A DNA stretch of 43,376 nucleotides. Source: an uncultured Clostridia bacterium (GTDB lineage: Bacteria; Bacillota; Clostridia; Oscillospirales; Acutalibacteraceae). The DNA is taken from contig CANQBM010000012.1 of assembly GCA_947589575.1 (NCBI GenBank), positions 1-43,376 of the forward strand, read 5' to 3'. Positions within the stretch are counted from its first letter, which is position 1. Each line of letters opens with the position of its first letter. Shown here in pieces: positions 42,279-43,376 of the stretch. The translations under genes were made by a program, and so were the position numbers. Under the pieces are notes generated by a model, which searched no databases, was not told the DNA's origin, and worked only from the letters and a program-made list of their open reading frames with translations.

Positions 42279-43376
42279 TATTTTTTTCCTTCCTTTTGTA
42301 TTTTTTTCCTATAAAAATACACAAACGTGAGTTTGTAAAAATATAATTGAAAAAAGTAATAATTATTATTGAAATTGCAGGTAGTAAAAATAAACTGATA
42401 GTGTTATTGATGATATTTGCTCCTTCGTTAAAATTAAAAATAGGATAAACAAAATTAGTAACAATAGTATATATTTTTTGATGCATTATAAAATAGATAA
42501 TTGAATTTTGTCCCAGATAGCTAATAAATTTAAAATGAATTTTTTGAGATATCAAAACAACAACTATAATACCGGCTATTGCTGATACAAACATTAAGAT
42601 TAAATTTCCATATGAATTCTGGCTCATATCAACTTTAACCGAAGATATTTTTTTGTTCAAATAACCAACTATAAAATTAATTGATAAAAATAAAAATATT
42701 AAACAAATGAATAAAAATGGGGTTATTTTATTAATTTTTTCTAAAACTTGCTTTCTCATGGATAGATAATATCCTAAAGCAAAAAACGGCAATGCCATAA
42801 ACGCAACATCTAAATTGAACCAAAGCGCTTTCCCGCCGAAATAGTAGTAAACTGCAAATATTATAAACATTATTGCAGAAAAAAATAATATAAAATAAAT
42901 ATTATTTTTTAAAAATTTCGCCAAAAAGTACATAATAATACTAACACAAAACATGGCGCCGAGAAACCAAATTGTTTCTTTTCTTCCCATTATTATAAAA
43001 CCTTTATACGAACTAAAATCTATATTTTTATCATTTATTAAAGAAAATATTATATCAATAGGTATAAAATAGAAAAAAGCCCAAAAATAATACGGTACTA
43101 CTAATGTTCTGATCTTATTTTTTATAAAGGCAGTTGTATTATATTTATTACCACTAAACAGAAATCCGGATAAAAAGAAAAACAACGGCATATGGAAAGT
43201 GTATATAATGGTCTGCAAATACGGATAACTAATATGACCAAGTAAAACAAATAAAATTCCGATACCCTTGGCAGTGTCAATCCATTCTATTCTGTTCGGT
43301 TGTCTGTCTGTCTGTCTGTCTGTCTGTCTGTCTGTCTGTCTGTCTGTCTGTCTGTCTGTCTGTCTGTCTGTCTGTC
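42262..43376 (-). CDS. Acyltransferase-3 family membrane protein, start beyond window, frame runs through a tetranucleotide repeat
   Basis: The frame is open from the right edge. After a run of the residues Asp-Arg-Gln-Thr from the repeat it reads NRIEWIDTAKGIGILFVLLG, the classic N-terminus of acyltransferase-3 proteins (catalytic His in the next residues, LLGHISYP), then FHMPLFFFLSGFLFS. About ten membrane helices follow, with FHMP and NSIIYFIMHQK as family marks. Such proteins O-acetylate surface sugars. The start codon must lie beyond the repeat. A shorter version from TTG 43218 would lose the first helix and the conserved His. Repeat-length changes would switch the gene off by frameshift. 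Confidence 0.88.
   Translation of the reverse strand, partial: QTDRQTDRQTDRQTDRQTDRQTDRQPNRIEWIDTAKGIGILFVLLGHISYPYLQTIIYTFHMPLFFFLSGFLFSGNKYNTTAFIKNKIRTLVVPYYFWAFFYFIPIDIIFSLINDKNIDFSSYKGFIIMGRKETIWFLGAMFCVSIIMYFLAKFLKNNIYFILFFSAIMFIIFAVYYYFGGKALWFNLDVAFMALPFFALGYYLSMRKQVLEKINKITPFLFICLIFLFLSINFIVGYLNKKISSVKVDMSQNSYGNLILMFVSAIAGIIVVVLISQKIHFKFISYLGQNSIIYFIMHQKIYTIVTNFVYPIFNFNEGANIINNTISLFLLPAISIIIITFFNYIFTNSRLCIFIGKKYKRKEKNNVSTN
43301..43376. repeat. Perfect (TGTC)19 tetranucleotide tract at the window edge
   Basis: Nineteen uninterrupted TGTC units on the plus strand (GACA on the coding strand), reaching the last base. It lies within the 5' part of the acyltransferase frame and stays open as repeated Gln-Thr-Asp-Arg. 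The tract may continue past the edge. Four-base units shift the frame whenever one is gained or lost. Confidence 0.97.

Follow-up and report, generated by a model that had tools for sequence, protein, structure and literature searches.

A probable GACA-repeat phase switch at a surface-polymer acyltransferase gene of an uncultured Clostridia bacterium, and a promoter-like element beside the repeat

The GACA tract and the acyltransferase gene cluster

The window analysed here, a whole contig of 43,376 nucleotides (C12) from an uncultured Clostridia bacterium, ends inside a perfect (GACA)19 tract on its minus strand. TRF describes this array as TGTC x 19.0 with 100% matches and a score of 152; the next period-4 array that it lists in the window scores only 31. 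An earlier note made from the sequence alone had described a perfect repeat of 19 units. Its perfection stands, whereas 19 cannot be taken as the full count, since the last position of the window (43376) is also the contig end and lies within the tract, making 19 units a lower limit. The tract is unlike the rest of this genome (1,955,548 bases in 32 contigs), in which (GACA)5 occurs in only two places, this tract and the end of contig C11, and it is therefore not a chance repeat. Scanning the 62 contig ends that lie beyond the window (1,500 bases for each of 61, and the C11 end as locus L009) revealed no tetranucleotide repeat of at least 14 nt other than GACA.

In its open frame the tract encodes (Asp-Arg-Gln-Thr)n, and the minus strand stays open from the tract through a frame of 370 aa. 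Without the tract, the protein matches PF01757 (Acyl_transf_3) over residues 6-316 with an E-value of 7.4e-32 and 111.1 bits, which passes the curated Pfam cut-off of 31. Both the open frame and the acyltransferase-3 family named in the earlier note are thus borne out, as is the LicD-containing polymer cluster in which the note had placed the gene (Table 1). Downstream of the tract, the first in-frame ATG, GTG or TTG is a TTG at 43218, behind the N-terminal sequence RIEWIDTAKGIG. The gene probably decorates a surface polymer, and its family and cluster suggest that this decoration may be O-acetylation.

Table 1. The tract and the genes downstream of it in the window
Feature	Coordinates	Strand	Basis and remarks
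(GACA)19, at least 19 units	43301..43376	-	TRF; contig end
Acyltransferase-3 gene, PF01757	42262..43300	-	Pfam; candidate start codon and leader outside the window
Family 2 glycosyltransferase, PF00535	41322..42278	-	Overlaps the acyltransferase end by 17 nt
LicD, PF04991, without tract here	40513..41325	-	Pfam; (GACA)19 in sister species G076
Core-2/I-branching glycosyltransferase, PF02485, without tract here	39578..40462	-	G076 homologue has (GACA)19
Glycosyltransferase-like ORF, same gene run	38626..39588	-	Family judged by eye
Polysaccharide flippase-like protein, PF01943	36995..38545	-	Pfam
CDP-glycerol glycerophosphotransferase family protein, PF04464	35841..36992	-	Pfam

A candidate leader and the three reading phases

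Contig C11 (46,612 bp) ends in TTGACAAAGGAGAAGAAAGG-ATG-GAA-AAT-TTT-(GACA)16, and a ribosome-site-like AAAGGAG / GAAAGG precedes the ATG. The candidate leader and start codon occupy C11:46517-46548 (L009 8518-8549), and they are preceded by a plus-strand run of ORFs resembling glycan genes. TTGACAAAGGAG was considered as a common ribosome site and rejected, with 2 exact copies in the genome. The C11 end is oriented to continue into the acyltransferase gene of C12, so that two tract ends face each other. We infer from this that C11 and C12 form one locus; a lost contig could lie between them. With this join, the ATG upstream of the tract is a candidate for the start codon that the earlier note had proposed looking for beyond the window edge.

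Across the inferred join, the ATG frame runs for 376 codons at 20 units (mod 3 = 2), and at 18 units (mod 3 = 0) the frame of an overlapping TTG, a candidate second start codon, runs for 370. With 19 units (mod 3 = 1) the ATG and TTG frames both stop after 33 codons. Overall, the non-open frames stop after 31-35 codons, so that in the joined sequence a change in unit number would switch between a full-length and a truncated product, in keeping with the expectation of an upstream start followed by early stops in the wrong phases. We consider it likely that the tract is a translational phase-variation switch of the acyltransferase-3 gene in a surface polysaccharide or teichoic-acid-like cluster, and frame-switching phase variation is well supported by the anatomy of the locus. 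Gain or loss of GACA units, presumably by slipped-strand mispairing, would bring the coding region into frame or take it out again. Expression would then be on from the ATG at mod 3 = 2, perhaps lower and from the TTG at mod 3 = 0, and off at mod 3 = 1.

The repeat might instead be a variable hydrophilic linker, (Asp-Arg-Gln-Thr)n, kept in frame at the N-terminus and serving no switch. Indeed, whichever of its three frames is read, the tract yields a soluble peptide up to the stop, and among the 82 tracts, mostly viral, that have long frames on both sides, the two frames agree in 36, which is near but somewhat above one third and serves only as a stand-in for a within-species comparison. However, the other 46 are out of frame, the two other phases at the present locus stop within 35 codons of the ATG, and a perfect tetranucleotide tract would be a poor means of keeping a frame. 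A linker without switching is thus improbable. More improbable still is an assembly artefact, in which a short repeat was mis-assembled or C11 and C12 are unrelated. Although in this genome the tract is found at contig ends only, a relative (L121) carries 14 units and several genomes of the family carry 8-26 units inside contigs, and both ends in the present genome (G000) bear the tract independently of each other, each next to plausible gene fragments.

Similar tracts occur among close relatives, (GACA)6 being present in 4 of 80 genomes of the genus. One of these belongs to a sister species (G076, uncultured Clostridia bacterium isolate Lapin-020), whose acyltransferase shares 95% identity and lacks the tract; upstream of it lies GGAGGTGGACAATC-TTG-ACA-GAT-AGA. 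Elsewhere in G076, contig ends carry (GACA)17 directly after the leaders GGATGGACAATCTT and GGGTGGAAAATCTT, the leader sequences before tract ends being ATGGACAATCTT and GTGGAAAATCTT, and at further contig ends one (GACA)19 is fused to LicD and another to a branching glycosyltransferase. Because like leaders and tracts sit on other genes of the cluster in G076, the switched surface enzyme seems to depend on the species. Tract pieces at four G076 contig ends measure 71-77 nt, which would fit assemblies that break inside longer repeats. In L121 (Clostridiales bacterium MI.10_12), a like leader is followed by (GACA)14 within a contig, and a glycosyltransferase (PF00535) is open from a TTG. One contig of G046 begins with a tract that lies ahead of a GtrII-like protein (PF14264).

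Homopolymer runs were seen in both sister species. The C11 contig, which ends in the GACA leader, has a G10 run at L009 2166-2175 (C11:40165-40174) in a glycosyltransferase-like gene. It is the only run of at least 9 G on either strand of the genome, and its gene is out of frame, one frame ending early and the rest of the protein being open in the adjoining frame. In G076, G/C runs of 11, 11 and 14 (L107 8751-8761; L108 4871-4881 and 6401-6414) occur in three genes of the cluster contigs, one of them acyltransferase-like, and lack the TTGACA element.

A TTGACA element upstream of repeat tracts

Of 398 family genomes sampled, 10 contain (GACA)8, representing 9 of 135 genera; (GACA)6 after a non-A base occurs in 5 of 394 genomes of the order, including G000 and G213, and tracts starting with a partial ACA unit occur in 5 of 398 family genomes. 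The bacterial loci analysed comprise 24 distinct tract starts, a set that leaves out further sites in G134 and G325. An exact TTGACA lies 23-29 nt before the tract in all 19 starts that have 60 nt of upstream sequence; the other five, with 0-32 nt upstream, show none. A -10-like hexamer is mostly present 16-18 bp after the TTGACA.

Both hexamers were scored together (TTGACA plus TATAAT, 16-18 bp spacer, maximum 12) against 300 dinucleotide shuffles, after dropping tracts with less than 55 nt upstream and near-duplicates (at least 24 of 40 positions alike). A score of at least 9 is reached upstream of 11 of 12 non-redundant bacterial GACA tracts (shuffle mean 0.49, maximum 3) and on the other side of 2 of 15; at the twelfth tract (L455), CATAAT touches the repeat. 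A run with slid control positions, in which the same near-duplicate limit was used and upstream sequences shorter than 60 nt were dropped, gave 10 of 11 against 5.5%. With -35 and -10 hexamers at 16-18 bp directly before the tract, the bacterial element appears sigmaA-promoter-like. In the C11 leader it reads TTGACA-17-GAAAAT, directly before the tract; taken alone, that element gave no significant promoter match, with 3 promoter-like sites in 414 nt against 1.8 in shuffles.

These counts are what would be expected if the tract marked a transcription start. Here, a sigmaA promoter or sigma pause site would be the primary feature, tracts would arise or expand where RNA polymerase opens the DNA or pauses, and frame switching would be a consequence that some genes exploit. 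Such an origin is compatible with a phase switch, and we regard it as plausible while leaning against it.

Viral contigs provide further material that bears on it. In IMG/VR, scanned completely, 82 stretches match TTGACA-N22-30-(GACA)5. A search with (GACA)6 alone, and so not chosen for TTGACA, matched at least 120 stretches, of which 80 were listed. Among these listed matches, 62 viral tracts remained after removal of those with less than 45 nt upstream and of near-duplicates (at least 28 of 40 positions alike). TTGACA lies 22-30 nt upstream in 27 of them, always at 24-28, and elsewhere in the 60 nt upstream in one case. The exact hexamer is missing at 22-30 nt in the other 35, a majority that speaks against a transcription-start origin, although some of these have near forms at that place, e.g. 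TTGACG or TTGCAG.

The same promoter score, with the limits used for the bacterial tracts (55 nt upstream, near-duplicates removed), was applied to viral tracts. A score of at least 9 was found, among the matches listed, upstream of 13 of 42 viral GACA tracts (shuffle mean 0.82, maximum 4) and on the other side of 3 of 59. GCAA tracts reached it in 11 of 36 (shuffles 0.87, maximum 4) and GAAC tracts in 5 of 42 (0.44, maximum 4), with 0 of 36 and 0 of 42 on the other side. No enrichment was seen for CAAT (1 of 32; shuffles 0.88, maximum 5; other side 3 of 31) or GACT tracts (1 of 18), and poly-G runs gave 0 of 5. Since GACA, GCAA and GAAC are enriched upstream and not on the other side, the rule is one-sided and applies to certain tract types. 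This enrichment favours a transcription-start origin, whereas CAAT, GACT and poly-G show that it would be no rule for all repeats. The -10 signal by itself was set aside as the common element; it is weak in many viral genes, which counts against a start site there, and TTGACA with its spacing carries the signal in them. The sequences compared for this included stretches chosen for TTGACA, with upstream parts shorter than 45 or 50 nt and near-duplicates (at least 28 of 40 positions alike) removed. In addition, many of the viral genes are homologous, so the counts are not fully independent.

The element does not follow one protein family. By Pfam (run on L188 and L191), viral GACA tracts occur in one protein with a PAPS-reductase domain and one C5 cytosine methylase, and by eye in hsdS-like, acyltransferase-3-like and other genes, with TTGACA read in two different frames. 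The same spacing in unrelated genes and different reading frames looks like a rule at the DNA level. The PAPS-reductase-like genes are instructive for a transcription-start origin, as one sub-family spells TTGACA with Leu-Thr codons and another spells TTGACG with Val-Asp-Gly codons, and the tract sits at different codons in the two, yet about 26 nt behind either hexamer. A tract-bearing query of this kind found 25 homologues, 12 of them with a repeat. Upstream sequence is visible in 11 of the 12, with TTGACA in 9, TTGACG in 1 and neither in 1 (L435), whereas one of 13 repeat-free homologues (L443) has TTGACA in the stretch looked at. Both a tract without TTGAC (L435) and a TTGACA without tract (L443) go against a transcription-start origin; the repeat-free homologues are mostly more distant, which makes this a weak comparison. 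Two loci carry other units: in L434, a PAPS-reductase-like viral gene, a five-base AGCAC repeat replaces the GACA tract behind TTGACA, and L440 has a short GACC repeat behind TTGACA. Many tract-bearing viral genes, at L188, L164, L191, L227 and other IMG/VR loci, resemble by eye PAPS-reductase-domain or DNA-methylase genes, some in frame and some out of frame, and viruses of gut bacteria may thus carry phase-variable DNA modification. A sigma54-like reading of TTGGCAC-N-TTGC before some viral tracts (L252, L256, L267, L274) was rejected, as the motif looks like coding sequence shared within one gene family.

Tracts outside long frames also bear on the question, since some of them follow TTGACA-17-TATAAT, as a transcription-start origin would have it. 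No frame of more than 61 codons passes through the tract in bacterial L127, L459, L460 and L131 or in the homologous viral loci L194, L209 and L224; frames of 914 codons through L104 (pieces of G026) and 134 codons through L455 keep those two from being counted as non-coding. A same-strand ORF begins 107-157 nt downstream of the tract in L127, L459, L131 and the three viral loci, and in L127 and the viral loci it begins, by eye, like a signal peptide. L194, L209 and L224 share a promoter-like element, a tract and a hairpin, placed 141 nt ahead of one and the same secreted-looking ORF. Their tracts count 16.2, 20.2 and 14.2 units, indicating that length differs at one homologous site, as a proxy only. 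The last tract units can pair with a following CTGTC in folds of L127, L459 and the three viral loci; a terminator scanner reports this hairpin with a T run in L209 and did not report it in L459. A 5' leader with promoter, tract and attenuator-like hairpin is possible at such loci. A search of nine loci against Rfam gave 0 matches at gathering thresholds, and a small GACA-repeat RNA as a common theme was dropped because many tracts lie in coding frames.

At the acyltransferase gene itself, a transcript started by the element would begin after the ATG and miss it, which is a difficulty for a transcription-start origin. The element is therefore not simply the promoter of this gene, and a mutational or pausing role is kept as a speculative reading. 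A tentative and rather doubtful proposal is that sigmaA start sites are where contingency tracts of the GACA, GCAA and GAAC kind originate and stay hypermutable, in Clostridia, in phages of Clostridia and in certain other phages. Initiation or pausing of RNA polymerase at TTGACA-N16-18-(-10) would drive repeat growth at +1. If true, a promoter-like element within a gene would be a cis-acting generator of phase variation, whether for surface enzymes, for genes of DNA modification or for restriction specificity. More widely, the TTGACA rule offers a way to test in laboratory strains what makes contingency tracts arise at particular places. As a one-sided signature about 26 nt upstream of the tract, valid across genes and reading frames, the rule can also serve to find switches in metagenomes.

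Known repeat switches and other tract-bearing genes

Among the contingency loci of Haemophilus influenzae, lgtC carries GACA, and some loci use several start codons; IcaC of Staphylococcus aureus is a member of the acyltransferase-3 family. In the available excerpts of PMC2651432, H. influenzae has GCAA in the middle of oafA and GACA in the 3' region of pgt1, while its other tracts are mostly 5'. The switch proposed here resembles these loci in its long tetranucleotide tract, frame switching, surface-glycan enzyme and location, mostly the 5' part of the ORF (PMC2651432). It differs in its Clostridia host, in the tract sitting on one gene of the cluster in one species and on others in the second, and in the promoter-like element at a fixed distance, of which those excerpts make no mention (PMC2651432).

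The icaC gene offers a precedent from a Firmicute. In excerpts of PMC4117637, a TTTA repeat in this gene switches a surface polysaccharide reversibly and independently of RecA, so that both cases concern a Firmicute surface-polysaccharide gene with a tetranucleotide repeat; the word 'acyltransferase' is absent from that text. In icaC, however, 4-6 units lie inside the gene, compared with at least 19 of a different unit at the 5' end here, and the excerpts describe no leader that moves among genes (PMC4117637). The earlier note had called long tetranucleotide switches rarely reported in Clostridia. For Firmicutes at large such a switch is already known from icaC (PMC4117637), and for Clostridia the remark holds in so far as we found none described in open-licence full-text literature, which is weak evidence of absence.

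Gut bacteria also vary by phase through invertible promoters, as in Clostridioides difficile and gut Bacteroides (PMC11868660, PMC6837544). Recombinases invert DNA there, in contrast to repeat slippage here (PMC11868660). The excerpts of the gut review speak of DNA inversion (PMC11868660); the present locus suggests that contingency switching by tetranucleotide repeats occurs in uncultured gut Clostridia. The switch is of a known kind, in a new host group and with promoter-like coupling; this coupling, the TTG frame and the tracts on other genes of the sister species go beyond the earlier note. While the frame switch is thus known in kind, we did not find an earlier description of the coupling, and repeat tracts at promoter starts were likewise not found described in open-licence full-text literature, again weak evidence of absence.

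Tracts were also seen in genes of other functions. GACA tracts stand in the middle of hsdS-like genes (by eye) in five Clostridia-order genomes (L126, L129, L132, L456, L458), where they could switch restriction specificity. GCAA tracts lie near the 5' end of methylase-like genes (by eye) on prophage-like contigs that we take to be Haemophilus-type (L293, L298, L303, L312, L316, L324, L327, L338), and in four of these eight (L293, L303, L316, L324) TTGAAA or TTGACA with a -10-like hexamer precedes the tract. At about 2700-2800 of L177, a GACA tract of 24.5 units lies inside a viral gene whose downstream part, with the motif PIGNLTSQ, is presumably reverse transcriptase-like.
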